Source: Snowella sp. (GTDB lineage Bacteria > Cyanobacteriota > Cyanobacteriia > Cyanobacteriales > Microcystaceae). From it: 36,214 nt of DNA. The stretch lies in assembly GCA_003249095.1 (NCBI GenBank), contig QBMS01000015.1, positions 1 to 36,214 of the forward strand, given 5' to 3'. Every line of letters begins with the position of its first letter. Positions within the stretch are counted from its first letter, which is position 1. Both the position numbers and the translations under genes were made by a program. Shown one piece after another: positions 392-36,214 of the stretch. Under the pieces are notes generated by a model. The model ran no database searches and had not been told where the DNA came from. It saw only the letters and a program-made list of their open reading frames with translations.

Positions 392-428
392 GTTATGAGG
401 GTTTTCGCGATCGCCTTTTTAAGTCCAC

Positions 429-459
429 AAAAAAATCCCCTGTTACCTAAAACAAGGGA
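429..459 (-). terminator. Rho-independent terminator of dxs
   Basis: On the minus strand the arms TCCCTTGT and ACAGGGGA pair around a short loop with one wobble. They are followed by a run of T (a run of A at 429-435 on the plus strand). It sits about 28 bases past the dxs stop, back to back with the psbK terminator. Confidence 0.6.
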
Positions 460-486
460 AATGAATGATTCACAATCCAAGCAAAA

Positions 487-2400
487 TTAACCGACCGCAA
501 CAGGCGTTTTGTTCTCACTGAAAAATGCTTCCAAAACCTGATCCGCAATTTGGGGAGTGGTTAAACCCAAACTAGCAAAGGATTCATTCGGTTCAGCATG
601 ATCCACCAAGATATCAGGAACGCCCAAGCGTTTGACAGGAACCAACACATTATTGTCTGAGAAAGCTTCTAAGACCGCCGAACCAAAACCGCCCATCAGA
701 CAGCCTTCTTCGAGGGTGACAACTTTACCGATACGTTTCGCTAGGGGCAAAATCAATTCCGTATCGAGGGGTTTCACAAAACGAGCATTAATCACCGTAG
801 CCTCTACCCCATGTTCACTGAGAATTTCGGCGGCTTGCAAAGCAGGATAAACCATAGAGCCATAGCCCAAAATCAGGACATCATCCCCACTCCGCAAAAT
901 CTCTGCCTTGCCGATGGGTAAGGCTTCCCAACCTTCTTCCATCAGAGGAACGCCTTGACCATTACCCCTGGGATAACGCATCGCGATCGCGCCTTCGGTA
1001 TATTCAACCCCCGTGACCACCATCCGTTGCAATTCGGCTTCATCCTTGGGAGCCATAATCACCAGATTAGGAATACACCGCAGATAGGCAATGTCATACA
1101 TCCCTTGATGGGTGGGGCCATCCGCACCGACAATTCCTGCTCGGTCTAAACAGAAAAAGACGGGTAAATTTTGAATACAAACATCATGGATAATCTGGTC
1201 GTAACCCCTCTGTAAGAACGTCGAATAAATCGCCACCACAGGACGCATTCCCTCACAGGCCAGACCTGCGGCAAGGGTAACGGCGTGTTGTTCTGCGATA
1301 CCGACATCTATGTATTGTTTAGGCAATTTAGCCTGAAATTTATCCAATCCCGTTCCCGTGGCCATAGCCGCCGTAATGCCAATGATTTTAGGATTGTTTT
1401 CGGCAAGCGTCGTGAGAGTATGGGCAAAAACCTTGGAATAACCAGGGGGTTTAGGTTTACTGGAAGGAATCGCCTTACCTGTCGCCAGATTAAAGGGACT
1501 TTGGGCGTGGTAACCAACCTGATCTTTTTCGGCTAACTCATAACCCTTGCCTTTAATCGTGGCAACATGGACAAAAACGGGGCCTTGTACCTTATGGGCT
1601 TGTTTAAAGGTATCGATTAATTCCTCTAAATTATGCCCATCAATAGGGCCAAAATATTTAAAACCAAGTTCTTCAATGACGGCTCCCACCTTGGGAACGG
1701 CTAGGCGTTTCATGCCTTCCTTAACTCGTTCCATCTCTGGAGTTAAAGAGTCACCGAAAAAGGGTAAATGTTTAAATTGTTCTTCTAAATTGTCCGCTAA
1801 ATTTTGGACAGCAGGATTAAGTCGGACTTTATTGAGATAGCGAGAAATTGCACCCACATTAGGAGAAATGGACATCTCGTTGTCATTGAGGATTACCATC
1901 AAGTTTGTATGGGGTAAGTGGCCCGCGTGGTTAATCGCCTCTAGGGCCATGCCCCCCGTGAGTGCGCCATCGCCGATGATAGAGACAACTTTAAAGTTTT
2001 CCCCTTTGGCATCCCGCGCCAGAGCCATCCCTAAACCCGCCGAAATACTGGTAGAAGCGTGACCTGCGCCAAAATGGTCGAATCTGTTTTCAGAACGTTT
2101 TAAATAACCCGCGATCCCGTCCTTTTGTCGGAGGGTATGGAAACGATGATACCGCCCCGTTAACATTTTGTGGGGATAGGCTTGATGTCCCACGTCCCAG
2201 AGGACTTTATCATGGTCTAGATCTAGGGTGGAATAGAGCGCGACGGTGAGTTCAACTACGCCTAGACCTGGCCCTAGATGACCACCGCTTTTGGCAACGG
2301 TCTCTAAGTGCTTTTCTCGGATTTGTCGAGAGATTTCCTCTAGTTGACGTATTGACAACCCGTGCAACTGGTTTGGATGTGTCAGTTCACTGATGTGCAT
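487..2400 (-). CDS. dxs: 1-deoxy-D-xylulose-5-phosphate synthase (DXS)
   Basis: DXS is the thiamine-diphosphate enzyme that joins pyruvate and glyceraldehyde-3-phosphate, the first and flux-controlling step of the MEP pathway to carotenoids, phytol and quinone side chains. The product has the family order: the N-terminal [14 protein letters not shown] and [11 protein letters not shown] motifs, the ThDP-binding [13 protein letters not shown] motif with a later [12 protein letters not shown], a transketolase pyrimidine-binding domain ([15 protein letters not shown]) and a C-terminal transketolase domain. Its length of about 637 residues is normal. An in-frame ATG exists 9 bases further upstream, but the conserved cyanobacterial start is MHISELTHP, so 2400 is chosen. 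It is transcribed alone, away from the PepSY-type gene and towards psbK. Confidence 0.96.
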
Positions 2401-2723
2401 AGAGTACAATTCTTATTCATTTTTATCGCTTCTCACACTTTAATCTATTTCAACGTCCTGGGTTAGTTTTTGGGGTCTGGAAACCCAACTGTCGCGATCG
2501 CATTCCTGGAACCCTAGACTCCACTCTTCCCAAATTCAAGCCCAAATTAAATTGGTCGGACTTTCTAACTTTTCTTTGTGACAGCTTATCAAAGACTAAA
2601 TTTAAACTTGCTTAGCAATCAAAAATCTGCTTTTTGGATTATTTTAGACTTAGGTACTGATAACCTGGATTATTTGTGATTATATGAGTGGTTTAGCTCG
2701 TCACTTTAAATAATTTTAAATAA
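2401..2723. other. Intergenic region between divergent dxs and the PepSY-type gene
   Basis: About 320 bases between two divergent genes, so promoters for both should lie here. It has a HIP1 site at 2494-2501 and an AT-rich right half. I see no RNA gene, no credible small reading frame and no clear -35/-10 pair. Confidence 0.5.
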
Positions 2724-3050
2724 ATGGATATTCGACAATTCCGCACACTACATCGCAAGGCAGCCCCCCTTGTATTGCTACCCCTGACCGTTACAGTTTT
2801 CACAGGAGTTTTCTATCGGCTAGGAAAAAGTTGGCTAGGACTCAATCGAGACCAACTACATTTTTTAATGGTGATTCATGAAGGGGAATATTTGGGGACA
2901 ACCCTTGAGCCGCTTTATGTACTCTTAAATGGTTTGGGTCTGCTGTGGATGTTAGCAACTGGTTGCGTCATGCTTTGGCAAAATATCAGTCACTCAAGTT
3001 GGTTCCAGCAGTTAATCTCTTTCAGGCAAAAATTTTCTGATGATTCGTAG
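2724..3050 (+). CDS. Small PepSY-associated TM helix protein
   Basis: A 108-residue membrane protein. The N-terminal RQFRTLHRKAAPLVLLPL followed by a hydrophobic stretch with TGVFYRLGKSWLG matches the first helix of PepSY-associated membrane proteins, where an RxxHxxxG/A-type start leads into the membrane. A second helix lies at about residues 68-88 (LYVLLNGLGLLWMLATGCVML). Between them is a short loop with HFLMVIHEGEYLG, where the two histidines could in principle bind a metal or heme; this is a guess. The gene looks intact and short rather than truncated, because similar 100-residue proteins occur in cyanobacteria. The substrate and role are unknown. The next feature downstream is a decayed oxidoreductase fragment. 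Confidence 0.6.
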   Translation: MDIRQFRTLHRKAAPLVLLPLTVTVFTGVFYRLGKSWLGLNRDQLHFLMVIHEGEYLGTTLEPLYVLLNGLGLLWMLATGCVMLWQNISHSSWFQQLISFRQKFSDDS

Positions 3051-19287: not shown

Positions 19288-22068
19288 TTAGGATTTTTTT
19301 CGCCGTTTATATTCTGAGCAATTAGAGTTCCCGTAATCATCAACTCTGCAATAACCACATTTTGGACAAATCAGGTAATGACATTCAGGACAAGTATTAC
19401 CTTTTTTAATGATTAAGGGAGAGTAACGACATTTTTCATCTTCTTTTATTTTTCCTCCACAGTATGCTAGAAGTTTTATATAAGAAGTTTCACCTTTCCG
19501 CTTACCTTCCAAAAGGCCTCGACCGCTAAACTTAAAGATATTAAAACCATTCAGATTGACTTCTTTTCTAGCATTCCACAACGTAGCTAAGGTTTTACAA
19601 AAATTCTGAATAATAGCTTTCCGAATAATACCTAATGGATCATAAATTTTTAATGGATGAGTATTGTTGCCTAATAAATTTATCATATTAGATGAATCAG
19701 TCTTGCCGTCTAATAAATTCATAATATTAGTAGGATCATAATTAGTATTTTCATTATATAGCATGATCAAAAAGTGTTTCAGTATTGACATATAAATATG
19801 AGATAATGTCAAACAACTATTATCCTGACGATACAGCAATTCAATCAATGTTATTTTCCATTGAGGTATCTGTTGTCGCCATGTTTCAGGAATAGGTTTA
19901 TTTGCAAAAATAAATAAGGGAATATATGCTTCAATTGATCCTTCATTAAGAATTTTAAAATCATCATAAGAAGGAATCTCACTATCTTGTAAAGTTTTTA
20001 ATTTGTCAGAAATGGAAATTTGATTTTGGTAAAACTGCTCGTCATAATCAAATAACCAAGGTGGTAAATAGCTCTCAGGCTCAAATCCTCTGGTCATATC
20101 TAACTCAATACCCTTATCACTAAAAATTCCAGCGAGACTTTGCAGTCTTTTATAACTTAATTCTCCTAAATAAATAGAAATAGGAGGATCAACATAAAAA
20201 TCTGGAGTATTACTACCATCCATGTATTTAAGTTGAAGATTGGGAGATAAGACAGCCGCGATAATAACATCTTCCCCTTGAATTTCTTTAAATTTGCGGA
20301 CGCACACGTCTGAGTAAACCTTGGATTTAAAAGCTTGACGAGTATTTTTTACATCAAGTAGCTTTTGGGATTTGTTTGAACTAACTCGAATATCTGCTTG
20401 TTTCCAAAGCTCACTTTTCTTCGTGACTTGATGAATAGCAATATCTTCTACGTTATTACCTAAATTTTCATAAAATTTCCGAACTAATTTTTCTGCCCCT
20501 CGCGCTGATAGCATTTTAGCTCGAACAGATTCACTGGCGTTGCTTCCTGCCCATAAACTCGCAAGAGTTTTATCATTTATATTAAATTGATATAAATCTC
20601 TATAATTCATGCTGATTCCATCTACACCAACATATCCAGAGTCTTTAAATTCATTGACTAGACTAAAAAATACAGAATATCTTGCTTCAATTATTTTTTT
20701 CTTAGAACTGATAGGAGCAAAATTCCACAAATAGTTATGATATTCAAGACCTATCTCTAAGTAAGTAATTTTTTTCCACAGAGTATCTCGATCCTCATTG
20801 GAGCAGTTACTATTACTAATAGTTTCAAACAATTCAGTCCAAGCCTTTTGGCGAAAAATGCGGAGATCTTCGACTTCGTTATGAAAATTGAGAATTTCTT
20901 GGATTAATCCTGCATATTGGTTAATATTACGTTCTTTTAGCAAATTTCTTAAATCTTCAGAGCATAAAAATAGTCCTTTTGAAAGAGACAGTAATCTTTC
21001 AATAAAACTATCCAATTGATCTAATGGAATTGACCGAATTTTATTACAGACAAGTGCTACGGAGTGTTGAATTTCAACTTTAGAAATATATAACCATAAA
21101 AAAGGCTCAAAAATTTTATAATCAGGGCTGTTTAAATATTCTAAAAACTCTGTCCATAGTATTTGACGAATAGATTCATCTTCATAGTCTAAATTTTTCT
21201 TTATAAAATCTACATATTCTTGAAAATTAAAGTTAAAAAGTACATCACGCAGTTCCCTAGATATAAAAAATAAATTTTCCGAAACTTTTTTCAATAGTTC
21301 TAAAGCTTCGTCGTTATTAGAAACAAATTTGATTTTTTCTAAAATAAAATGAATAGCTTCTGCTTCTGACAATGTTGAAACATAAGACTCGATAAACGGC
21401 TTTGAAAGATTAAAGTTAGAGCTATATACAAAATCCTTTATAGTCTTCTTATCAATAGTATTGGGATCAATCTTAACAACTTCAATAGCTGATTGTCTCC
21501 TATTATTTTTGATGGCAAAGGATACAATATCTCCATTGTTAATCCAACGATGATCTTCAACATACACCTGTGATTTATCCTCACATTCGATATAAGCTTT
21601 TTTATAAATTTCAAGTCTTAAAGACGAACGTTGGCGAACAAAAATACCATTTCTTTGGTGTAAGCGAACATTAACTGCACAGGGGCCTCTGTGATTATTT
21701 CCGATTTCAAACTCAACAACAATACCTTTTCCTTTTTCTCTGTCGCCTTCAAATAGTTCTTGTAGATGTTGAGGTACTTGATTTCGATCAACATATATTT
21801 TATTCTTGTCTATTTCTGTATAAAAAATAAACCCATAATTATTTTTTTGACCATCTTTATGTCCACCAAACCAAAGAATTTCTCCAATTGCCATAGATTT
21901 AGACTTATCGCCTTCTCTCTCACAATCGGAATTTTGTAAGACTTTGTTTTTATTAGATTCTTGCCATTCAGAAACCTTGTCAGTTGCAAATTGAGTGCAA
22001 TCTTCTAAAATACCTTCTTCTGCTAAAAAATCATCAAAAGACGAACCGATATAAGGATTATTAGTCAT
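19288..22068 (-). CDS. Chimeric 926-residue protein: antitoxin-like leader, cold-shock-like domain, PD-(D/E)XK-like core, zinc ribbon
   Basis: I do not recognise this gene as a whole. Residues 1-36 (NPYIGSSFDDFLAEEGI, then TDKVSEWQ) match the N-terminus of small XRE antitoxins that normally follow Gp49/HigB-like toxins, but no helix-turn-helix follows. From M59, MAIGEILWFGGHKDGQKNNY and RGPCAVNVRL resemble a cold-shock/OB nucleic-acid-binding domain (59-137). Residues about 210-510 are mostly helical. E526, D559 and D572-x-K574 (ADIRV; LLDVKNTR) fit a PD-(D/E)XK nuclease core. The C-terminus has a probable zinc ribbon: C893, C896, C901, C904 and C907. The ATG overlaps the toxin gene by 8 bases. 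The gene is very AT-rich and lies in the longest HIP1-free stretch of the window (about 3.4 kb), suggesting acquisition. Function unknown; a nucleic-acid-targeting effector is an inference. Confidence 0.7.
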   Translation of the reverse strand: MTNNPYIGSSFDDFLAEEGILEDCTQFATDKVSEWQESNKNKVLQNSDCEREGDKSKSMAIGEILWFGGHKDGQKNNYGFIFYTEIDKNKIYVDRNQVPQHLQELFEGDREKGKGIVVEFEIGNNHRGPCAVNVRLHQRNGIFVRQRSSLRLEIYKKAYIECEDKSQVYVEDHRWINNGDIVSFAIKNNRRQSAIEVVKIDPNTIDKKTIKDFVYSSNFNLSKPFIESYVSTLSEAEAIHFILEKIKFVSNNDEALELLKKVSENLFFISRELRDVLFNFNFQEYVDFIKKNLDYEDESIRQILWTEFLEYLNSPDYKIFEPFLWLYISKVEIQHSVALVCNKIRSIPLDQLDSFIERLLSLSKGLFLCSEDLRNLLKERNINQYAGLIQEILNFHNEVEDLRIFRQKAWTELFETISNSNCSNEDRDTLWKKITYLEIGLEYHNYLWNFAPISSKKKIIEARYSVFFSLVNEFKDSGYVGVDGISMNYRDLYQFNINDKTLASLWAGSNASESVRAKMLSARGAEKLVRKFYENLGNNVEDIAIHQVTKKSELWKQADIRVSSNKSQKLLDVKNTRQAFKSKVYSDVCVRKFKEIQGEDVIIAAVLSPNLQLKYMDGSNTPDFYVDPPISIYLGELSYKRLQSLAGIFSDKGIELDMTRGFEPESYLPPWLFDYDEQFYQNQISISDKLKTLQDSEIPSYDDFKILNEGSIEAYIPLFIFANKPIPETWRQQIPQWKITLIELLYRQDNSCLTLSHIYMSILKHFLIMLYNENTNYDPTNIMNLLDGKTDSSNMINLLGNNTHPLKIYDPLGIIRKAIIQNFCKTLATLWNARKEVNLNGFNIFKFSGRGLLEGKRKGETSYIKLLAYCGGKIKEDEKCRYSPLIIKKGNTCPECHYLICPKCGYCRVDDYGNSNCSEYKRRKKS

Positions 22069-34056: not shown

Positions 34057-34344
34057 ATGAGTCCCCTATTACCTCGATTTGTTAAAATTGCCTATCGCAA
34101 AGAACCCATTTCTAGTTTTATTTTGATTGTGGGGGCAGTCGATGTGGTAATTGGGGGCATGGGCGAAAAATGGAGTTTATTGTCCATTGGGTTAGCCACT
34201 GCGGCCTTAGCAGTGGGTCTGCGTTGGTGGCAATCCCAAAAATCCCAGGCGATCGCGGTTGAACAGCCTCCCAGACGCTATTTACCCCCAGCTTCTTCCC
34301 GCGCCCCGTTACCGAATTTAACCAAAGAAAATCGGCATTACTAA
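34057..34344 (+). CDS. Conserved small membrane protein of unknown function
   Basis: A 95-residue protein with a short basic N-terminus (MSPLLPRFVKIAYRKEP). Two hydrophobic segments follow at about 18-35 (ISSFILIVGAVDVVIGG) and 40-57 (WSLLSIGLATAALAVGL), then a proline- and arginine-rich tail (PPRRYLPPAS). The start is the ATG at 34057; a TTG four codons earlier is possible. I recall similar proteins as conserved hypotheticals in cyanobacteria. It may be cotranscribed with pdhC, 129 bases upstream. It converges with the phosphoglucomutase-like gene. Confidence 0.65.
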   Translation: MSPLLPRFVKIAYRKEPISSFILIVGAVDVVIGGMGEKWSLLSIGLATAALAVGLRWWQSQKSQAIAVEQPPRRYLPPASSRAPLPNLTKENRHY

Positions 34345-34358
34345 ATCCGTTAACGGCA

Positions 34359-35927
34359 TTAATATTGCTCTAATTCGGCGATCGCTTCGGCTAATTCAAA
34401 CAATGGTGAAAGAGCCGTTTCAAAGGGGAAGGTCTGTTTTTTGGCATCGGGTTCATAATTTTCAGCATAGATATTGAGATTAACCCGTTCATTGGACTGG
34501 TAGGGAGTATCTAGTTTAAAAATTAATCGTGAACCATCGGTAAAAACCAGGTTTAAGCCAACCTGTTCTACTCGCTGAAACTGTAATTCATTATAAAATT
34601 TTAGGGGCTGACTATAGGCGACTTGATAGGGCCCGTATTCTTTCCCCTTAAGGTTTAGGGTCGTCAAGGCATGCAATTTATCATACATCGCAGAGAAGGT
34701 TAATCCTGGATAAAGTTGACAGCCGTGATAATTTCTGCCGTATTTTTGCCAATGATTTTGAACAGTTTTAAGGACGGATTGGGGACGAGTCGCGAGTAAA
34801 TTTAACCAAAATAATAAAGCCCAGAGTCCATCAGTTTCTCGGCTATAATTTGCGCCAATTTGTCCCTCTTCGTTGCCGCCAAAAGTTACTCCTTGAATGT
34901 CCATCAGTTGACTGGTAAAAGTCCAATCAGTAGGGGTTTCATAACAGACAATATCTAAAGCAGTACAGGCATGATCGACCGCAGTACTGGCAAACAGCGA
35001 TCGCGTTACAGCGTTAACAGCGCCTCGGTAAGCGGGAATGAGGGGGGAATTGGCCGTTAAAATGGCTAAACTATCACTGGCTGTTACCCCAATATTGTTG
35101 CCAAAAATTCCGTAGCGATCGCCCACTAAAAGACAGGTGATATCGGGAGGATCAATTTTCCAGGGAAGATTGGTGGTTCCGATTAAAGCATCGAGGAAAA
35201 TTGGAGCGATTTCAAAGGAGACAGTTCCTGGTAATAAACCCAGATTTTTTTCTAATAAATGTTGACTATAAGCGTAGTTAATAGGGTCAAGACAGGTTAC
35301 CCCGACTCGAAAATTTTGAGTTTTTAAAAAGTGTTGAATACTATCTAAATCAAAAATCGACGACATCAATTTTTCATAGATCGTGGCCGAATTCACTACT
35401 TCAATCGTCAAGTTTTCTAGGGTAACGCTCCCTAGACGATTGAGGGAAATATCATTGCTCTCTAAAATTTGATAATGCTGAATAATTTGGGCACGTTCTT
35501 GAATTCCTTCTAAGGCGTTGAAGGTTGCCTTGGAACCATTGCCTAAATAGTAATCTAGATGGATTTCTCCGCCCTTTTCTGAAGCATGAATCTGAATTAA
35601 AATTCCCGCGATCGCCGTGTGACGACGAATGAGGTAGGAAGCGATCCCAGGAGAAAGTAATCCCTGGGAACCCACAATCACTTTCCCAAAACCATTGGCG
35701 GCGGCTAATTTGATAATGGTTTGTAAAAATTCCTGGGTAATCTGTTGACCGTCTCCCCCTAAAACGAGAGTTTGACCCTGCCGATTGGGAAGAATGGTAA
35801 AAAAACTTTGGACAGCATTTTCTAGATAATGGGGTTGCCGAAAAACCGACAGGGGCTTACGAAGACCATAGGGGAACAGTTTTTGATCCGCAAAGGGTTG
35901 GGTGGGAACTGTCCGAAGAAGGGTCAT
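34359..35927 (-). CDS. Catalytically altered phosphoglucomutase-family paralogue
   Basis: A 522-residue protein aligned by eye along its length with alpha-D-phosphohexomutases: TVPTQPFADQK, QPHYLENAVQS, LVLGGDGQQITQEFLQTIIK, AAANGFGKVIVG, and late ETDGLWALLFWLNLLA. The key motifs are changed, however. The phosphoserine loop TASHNP reads IHASEK (113-118), the GTSGLR start reads FPYGLR (18-23), the metal-binding DGDGDR is reduced to VGDR (268-271), and the sugar loop GEES reads GNEEGQIG (351-358). It is therefore unlikely to be a normal phosphoglucomutase. A regulatory, scaffold or different catalytic role is possible. It follows a GrpE-like gene by 3 bases, so the two are coupled. Confidence 0.75.
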   Translation of the reverse strand: MTLLRTVPTQPFADQKLFPYGLRKPLSVFRQPHYLENAVQSFFTILPNRQGQTLVLGGDGQQITQEFLQTIIKLAAANGFGKVIVGSQGLLSPGIASYLIRRHTAIAGILIQIHASEKGGEIHLDYYLGNGSKATFNALEGIQERAQIIQHYQILESNDISLNRLGSVTLENLTIEVVNSATIYEKLMSSIFDLDSIQHFLKTQNFRVGVTCLDPINYAYSQHLLEKNLGLLPGTVSFEIAPIFLDALIGTTNLPWKIDPPDITCLLVGDRYGIFGNNIGVTASDSLAILTANSPLIPAYRGAVNAVTRSLFASTAVDHACTALDIVCYETPTDWTFTSQLMDIQGVTFGGNEEGQIGANYSRETDGLWALLFWLNLLATRPQSVLKTVQNHWQKYGRNYHGCQLYPGLTFSAMYDKLHALTTLNLKGKEYGPYQVAYSQPLKFYNELQFQRVEQVGLNLVFTDGSRLIFKLDTPYQSNERVNLNIYAENYEPDAKKQTFPFETALSPLFELAEAIAELEQY

Positions 35928-35930
35928 AGG

Positions 35931-36214
35931 TTACTGTAAAGAGGAATGGGGGACATTTTCAGGCTGGGAAGGAGAAACGGGGGGATGCAGGTTTTCTGGT
36001 TGACTGACCTTGGCTCGATATAAAAGCTTTTTACCCTGGCGATAACCCACATAACGCACGATGACGGTACTGCCCGCTTCAACGGTTCCATCCATTAATT
36101 GATGCCATTGGGGATTATAACTGACGCTTTCTCCCACCGCCGCGATCGCTTCAATTTCCCATTGTTGCAGAAGATTCGCCAAGGGCTTCATCAGAGGTAA
36201 TAATTTAATGGCGG
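35931..36214 (-). CDS. 3' part of a GrpE-like gene (cut by the window edge)
   Basis: The frame is open to the right edge with no stop, reading AIKLLPLMKPLANLLQQWEI and continuing IEAIAAVGESVSYNPQWHQL. The internal ATG at 36191 is therefore probably not the start. The segment AVGESVSYNPQWHQLMDG, then VRYVGYRQGKKLLYRAKV, resembles the C-terminal beta domain seen in cyanobacterial GrpE-like nucleotide exchange factors for DnaK-type chaperones. The rest of the gene is outside the window, so the assignment rests on about 90 residues. A proline-rich tail ends the protein. The stop lies 3 bases before the phosphoglucomutase-like gene. Confidence 0.55.
   Translation of the reverse strand, partial: AIKLLPLMKPLANLLQQWEIEAIAAVGESVSYNPQWHQLMDGTVEAGSTVIVRYVGYRQGKKLLYRAKVSQPENLHPPVSPSQPENVPHSSLQ

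Follow-up and report, generated by a model that had tools for sequence, protein, structure and literature searches.

The ORF at positions 34359 to 35927 on the minus strand of the window (the whole stretch of 36 214 nucleotides analysed here) raises the question of what use a protein may be that resembles a phosphoglucomutase from end to end and has lost nearly all of its catalytic residues. The original prediction described a phosphoglucomutase paralogue in an intact frame, coupled to a GrpE-like gene and selected for a purpose different from the standard reaction, and proposed that it senses sugar phosphates or is a partner of the chaperone system.

34359..35927, minus strand: predicted CDS, PGM1-type pseudo-phosphoglucomutase, 522 aa plus stop codon

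Homology and fold of the predicted protein

The ORF begins with ATG and runs for 522 codons with zero internal stops. By sequence, the best solved relative of its product is PDB entry 7vss (E 1.1e-105), which bears the name Phosphoglucomutase_tlr1976 in the fold search. Residues 5-520 are aligned, which bears out the family pattern over more than 500 residues described in the original prediction. The protein also matches NCBIfam NF005737 (396.7 bits, cut-off 378). Of the Pfam domains, I, III and the C-terminal one were detected, and there was no match to domain II.

An AlphaFold2 model (mean pLDDT 81.7, pTM 0.82) has 7vst as its top PDB match in Foldseek (E 1.1e-47). Confidence is low at the old active-site regions, with values of 36-42 in residue blocks 241-270 and 56-65 in blocks 331-370. 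A canonical protein modelled as a control with the same rows gave a mean of 90.3 and a pTM of 0.91, with a smaller drop at the former site regions, and is also weak around residues 241-260. Hence both the full-length sequence homology and the fold of a PGM1-type alpha-phosphoglucomutase are present.

Orthologues with the same motifs lost were found in genomes G004 (53 % identity to the window protein) and G025 (35 %), and the three carriers belong to three genera. An assembly artefact is ruled out by these orthologues, one of which is in a genome assembled as a single 7.9-Mb contig.

Two other ORFs in the window were noted. A 93-aa ORF at 34063-34341 (plus strand) converges on the pseudoenzyme gene and gave weak phage-shock PspM/Rv2743c matches only (E 0.0085 and E 0.05). 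A 926-aa ORF at 19291-22068 (minus strand) has no Pfam match at E 1e-5.

Loss of active-site residues

The motif reference consisted of 58 canonical rows, namely 47 from among the 80 loci that a contig profile search retained, and 11 other relatives. Fragmentary matches (G017 and G043) were excluded from the motif alignments. Residue roles and human PGM1 numbering follow the available part of PMC7761743. The altered loops of the window protein, with residue ranges in its own numbering, are as follows.

35856..35876, minus strand: loop 0, residues 18-24, GTSGLRK replaced by FPYGLRK (R23 kept; T19 and S20 lost)
35571..35594, minus strand: loop 1 (phosphoserine), residues 112-119, SASHNPGG replaced by QIHASEKG
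35115..35126, minus strand: loop 2 (metal), residues 268-271, DGDGDR replaced by VGDR (aligned as --VGDR)
34860..34877, minus strand: loop 3 (sugar), residues 351-356, GEESFG replaced by GNEEGQ (GNE common to all three carriers)
34827..34841, minus strand: loop 3B, residues 363-367, REKDG replaced by RETDG (general base Lys lost)
34473..34517, minus strand: loop 4 (phosphate-binding), residues 471-485, replaced

Relative to the 58 canonical rows, the phosphate loop has changed from RLSGTGTKGATVR to KLDTPYQSNERVNLN, and TASHNP, DGDGDR, GTSGLR and GEES are all altered, as originally reported. A mere shift of TASHNP in the alignment was considered and rejected; the window protein has a Ser two residues further on (HAS), but this is absent from G004 and G025.

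Only three of 16 catalytic or ligand-contacting residues (R23, D292 and R293) are kept in the window protein and two in each of G004 and G025. All 16 are kept in 57 of the 58 canonical rows, and 15 in the remaining row. Among the other columns with conservation of 95 % or more, 108/214 are kept in the window protein, 101/214 in G004 and 87/214 in G025, so that the loss at the 16 residues is in excess in each carrier (Fisher p 0.018, 0.008 and 0.032, respectively). When the loops are defined more broadly, as 47 columns, the excess is smaller: the window protein keeps 16/47 against 95/183 elsewhere (p 0.034), and the corresponding p values are 0.003 for G004 and 0.044 for G025. Counting only positions kept in all three carriers, the difference (8/47 in the broad loops against 52/183) is not significant (p 0.14). 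The change is strongest at the catalytic and ligand residues, yet it is spread across the whole protein.

T19, S20, S117, E376, S378, K389, R503, S505 and T507 are changed in all three carriers. The catalytic phosphoserine, S117, is replaced by H, R and L. The metal aspartates D288 and D290 are lost in all three, and D292 is kept in the window protein only. In the sugar loop, E376 has become N, and S378 has become E, Q or R; the general base K389 is replaced by T, R or P. All four of the phosphate loop residues R503, S505, T507 and R515 are changed in the window protein and in G004, and R515 alone is kept in G025. R293 is retained in 3/3 carriers. Judged by its sequence, the protein is a pseudoenzyme, with its catalytic residues lost and its predicted fold and reading frame conserved across species.

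Origin and distribution of the degenerate form

The three degenerate proteins have deletions of 4, 2 and 2 residues in common, and at 20 positions they agree with one another and differ from the canonical consensus. C212, H319, C328 and the GNE motif are invariant across them. In the tree they form one group with support of 100/100, the long branches making its placement unsure.

The family (50 genomes), order (388) and phylum (386) samples that were searched overlap. A profile of the three degenerates scored 1008, 982 and 836 bits with its own members among the order genomes, and the next best match was 462 bits. The family sample includes three carriers, and the phylum sample two, the window's genome and G025, with no further ones. 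A contig profile search with the three-row alignment retained 80 loci of 559 relatives, none of them near the degenerate form (best identity among the 80 loci, 40 %).

The degenerates could not be placed among the canonical rows in the trees. Constraining the window and G004 proteins with ten canonical family rows was not rejected (p-AU 0.48, with G025 excluded for its very long branch), and vertical descent within the family is possible. The degenerate proteins appear from their sequences to be one lineage, not a copy broken in the window alone. Two more genera thus have the motifs conserved in their altered state, and each clade relative carries this altered protein or lacks the gene; a decay confined to this genome, which would have counted against the original prediction, was not found.

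Selection and evolutionary rate

With 522/522 window codons aligned to G004, differences at codon positions 1, 2 and 3 are 0.391, 0.259 and 0.563 (chi-square p 9e-14). For this pair, dN is 0.418 and dS 1.87 (NG86), giving a dN/dS of about 0.22, which is rough as dS is near saturation. The ratio rests on the window/G004 pair, since dS was not computable for the two pairs that include G025. Based on the codon-position bias and the low dN/dS, the reading frame has been under purifying selection. For the same genome pair, dN is 0.100 for the E. coli-type Pgm described below and 0.124 for SecD, and the two halves of the gene upstream of the pseudoenzyme, which encodes a helix-turn-helix (HTH)/GrpE-like protein, give 0.37 and 0.32. 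The pseudoenzyme evolves fast, at a rate close to, and slightly above, that of this neighbour. Recent decay is ruled out by the codon-position bias and the rate comparisons. A frame uninterrupted in three genera, codon bias and loss of the catalytic residues agree with the earlier proposal that the gene is selected for a role that is not the standard reaction.

Probable displacement by an E. coli-type Pgm

No other PGM1-type gene was found in the window's genome (DISPLACEMENT). An active PGM1-type twin was sought there and rejected; the sole other match (E 0.34) is in a 484-aa locus, L004, which we take from its size and motif pattern to be a likely glucose-1,6-bisphosphate synthase of the Slr1334 type (cd05800). 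The term paralogue in the original prediction is therefore misleading, as the intact enzyme in this genome belongs to another subfamily. Five other superfamily loci are present. One, L005 on contig C154, encodes an intact Pgm of the E. coli type, which scores 983.6 bits with TIGR01132 (cut-off 778), keeps the motifs FGTSGHRG, TPSHNP and GEES and is presumed to be the working phosphoglucomutase. Elsewhere in this genome, L006 (positions 406-2964, minus strand, contig C19) encodes an 853-aa nucleotidyltransferase/hexapeptide/phosphomannomutase fusion. The mutase half of this fusion is without SASHNP and GEES (GSGETGF in place of GEES) and is a second degenerate mutase domain in the genome.

TIGR01132 is present in 8/50 family genomes. 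None of these eight includes a canonical PGM1-type gene, three having the degenerate form and five no match. A PGM1-type match in the canonical score range was found in 39 of the 42 family genomes without E. coli-type Pgm (as fragments in G017; Fisher 3e-7); canonical calls were made by score range, with motifs checked in a subset only. Neither type was found in G001, G033 and G329 (completeness 78, 93 and 91). As the two types are mutually exclusive in the family, the old PGM1-type enzyme has probably been displaced and the relic repurposed. In Synechocystis, the E. coli-type protein Sll0726 accounts for nearly all phosphoglucomutase activity and is grouped in cd05801 with the Salmonella enzyme, according to the available part of PMC9426568.

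In a SecDF tree, seven of the eight genomes with E. coli-type Pgm fall in one clade (support 100/98), with G009 outside. The window's genome branches first, then G004 and then genus g12; the E. coli-type Pgm tree gives no resolution inside the clade. Since carriers span the clade root, the degenerate form probably dates back to the origin of the clade, with later losses in G011 and in G019, G030 and G301. Its absence from these four of the seven clade genomes indicates that the pseudoenzyme is dispensable or its role optional.

Across the order, a PGM1-type match at E 1e-10 is missing from 196/388 genomes, yet only 17/388 have the E. coli-type Pgm. Many genomes of the order must therefore depend on mutases of other kinds, and perhaps on nothing but the Slr1334 type.

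The upstream HTH/GrpE-like gene

35931..36212, minus strand: C-terminal part of the predicted upstream HTH/GrpE-like gene, which runs beyond the window across a 10-N gap (L038:226-667, contig C66)

The window's copy of this gene is split by the 10-base N run at the window edge, and both halves match the G004 protein. The whole form in relatives has an HTH domain and a GrpE-like region. In the G004 protein, HTH_26 is above its cut-off and GrpE (PF01025) reaches 24.5 bits against a gathering score of 25.8; with PF01025, G025 gave no match and the window fragment 13.2 bits. The match to GrpE 3a6m in phmmer is weak (E 1.9e-4).

The HTH/GrpE-like gene lies directly upstream of the pseudoenzyme gene, in the same direction, in 3/3 carriers. 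The junction is a 4-base ATGA overlap in G004 and G025, and in the window 3 bases separate the upstream stop codon from the ATG. Both the coupling and the linkage foreseen in the original prediction are therefore real. An HTH/GrpE-like gene is found in 54 of 58 relatives, mostly without the pseudoenzyme, and a relative of it was found at one of 80 canonical PGM loci (flanks of up to 6 kb, some ending at contig ends). The proposed partnership with the chaperone system is loosely supported by this GrpE-like neighbour. Against it, the neighbour is widespread without the pseudoenzyme, the true grpE of the window's genome is separate, at C170, and among the neighbourhoods fetched for the three carriers dnaK and grpE are nearby in G004 only, where ORFs resembling them, identified by eye, lie 1.3-4.3 kb upstream.

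The sequence downstream of the pseudoenzyme differs among the carriers: G004 has a metallo-beta-lactamase-fold gene there, G025 another gene, and the window a 99-codon ORF. G011 has the HTH/GrpE-like gene immediately before the metallo-beta-lactamase-fold gene that follows the relic in G004, which is the layout expected if the relic had been deleted in G011. No pseudoenzyme remnant was found near the HTH/GrpE-like gene in G011, G019, G030 or G009 (best E 0.037, taken as chance). Beyond the window, contig C66 also includes a 2694-aa ORF (L038:4022-12106, minus strand) with repeats that by eye resemble LamG/concanavalin-type repeats.

Interpretation

We favour, with a probability of roughly 50 %, the reading that the protein is a conserved pseudoenzyme derived from a PGM1-type (cd03085-like) alpha-phosphoglucomutase and is a non-catalytic partner of the HTH/GrpE-like protein. 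The E. coli-type gene would have taken over the conversion between glucose 1-phosphate and glucose 6-phosphate in the clade ancestor, and this would have freed the resident PGM1-type protein from its old task. We infer that displacement preceded degeneration. The freed protein may then have become established as a partner translated together with the upstream protein, which it would bind, as a scaffold or to regulate how that protein binds DNA or forms oligomers, and it would not work by catalysis. A protein-protein role is suggested by the conserved coupling, the similar rates and the loss of ligand residues. The secure part is a displacement-derived pseudoenzyme that has been kept intact, and its job is what we infer; the linkage is observed, and a functional partnership is what it may reflect. 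Counting against the partner reading, only three carriers are known in the family, order and phylum samples, and the gene is absent from four of the seven clade genomes. As the HTH/GrpE-like gene mostly occurs without the pseudoenzyme, its product does not need it. A more specific version can be put forward only tentatively, namely that the resident enzyme, once replaced, turned into a dedicated non-catalytic subunit of the HTH/GrpE-like DNA-binding protein, with no sugar-phosphate recognition and with its bi-lobed cleft used as a protein-binding surface.

The absence of the gene or any remnant beside the HTH/GrpE-like gene in G011, G019 and G030, the missing remnant in G009, the absence from G301, and a dN four times that of the E. 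coli-type Pgm would also suit a relic decaying by drift after displacement, with no role. However, the gene is open, full-length and codon-biased in three genera across the deepest split of the clade, its lineage-specific residues and gene coupling are conserved, and its rate is just slightly above that of the neighbour gene, and we consider simple decay unlikely. A new enzyme or binder, with a site rebuilt in the old cleft from lineage-fixed residues (e.g. N352, H401 and C321), is as unlikely, if not more so. It would account for the 20 positions shared by the carriers and for the invariant C212, H319, C328 and GNE motif, but three sequences are too few to tell function from ancestry, the residues in question are scattered along the chain, and model confidence is low at the former site regions.

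The sensor of the original prediction, binding glucose phosphates without turnover, has a precedent in the inactive relative PGM5, which binds glucose 1-phosphate (available part of PMC7761743), and R293 is kept in all three carriers. PGM5 keeps its binding residues, whereas the nine listed above are changed here, and with nearly all hexose-phosphate-binding residues of PGM1 and PGM5 (as given in that part of PMC7761743) gone, sensing via the old pocket is improbable. That the protein is still an active phosphoglucomutase with an unusual site is scarcely credible. The window protein does exceed the NCBIfam equivalog cut-off, but G004 (349.7) and G025 (212.8) fall under it, the phosphoserine, two of the three metal aspartates, the general base and the phosphate loop are gone, and the genome already has an intact Pgm. 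Compared with these alternatives, the partner reading remains the one that we prefer.

Relationship to known systems

In open-access full text, a coverage that leaves out most subscription journals, we found nothing on a pseudo-phosphoglucomutase of this kind and no study of the HTH/GrpE-like cyanobacterial protein. The available part of PMC11257934 includes no such inactive phosphoglucomutase, and that of PMC7159879 is not about the HTH/GrpE-like protein. The locus is a natural case in which an enzyme was probably displaced and the old protein retained, with the fold kept and the chemistry lost in one clade, and the sister genome G011 offers the same locus without the relic for comparison. 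It is also an annotation trap, as the window protein passes an equivalog cut-off despite the loss of nearly all of its catalytic residues. A functional link to the HTH/GrpE-like protein, if there is one, would provide a handle on a near-universal cyanobacterial protein.

The Slr1334-type glucose-1,6-bisphosphate synthase (cd05800) belongs to the same superfamily, and its likely member in this genome, L004, has intact active-site motifs. The E. coli-type Pgm (TIGR01132) shares both superfamily and genome with the window protein, but its motifs are intact. One of the closest known systems is the cyanobacterial PGM1-type alpha-phosphoglucomutase (tlr1976, PDB 7vss and 7vst; NF005737), which the window protein resembles in full-length homology and four-domain fold. 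It differs from that enzyme in the replacement of 13/16 catalytic or ligand residues, in three deletions and in the undetected Pfam domain II. Vertebrate PGM5 (aciculin, PDB 6y8x; Foldseek E 7e-44 to the window model) is also an inactive member of the PGM1 branch. However, PGM5 keeps its loops and, according to the available part of PMC7761743, binds glucose 1-phosphate, whereas the window protein is without the binding residues and, unlike PGM5, is bacterial and encoded in a coupled gene pair.
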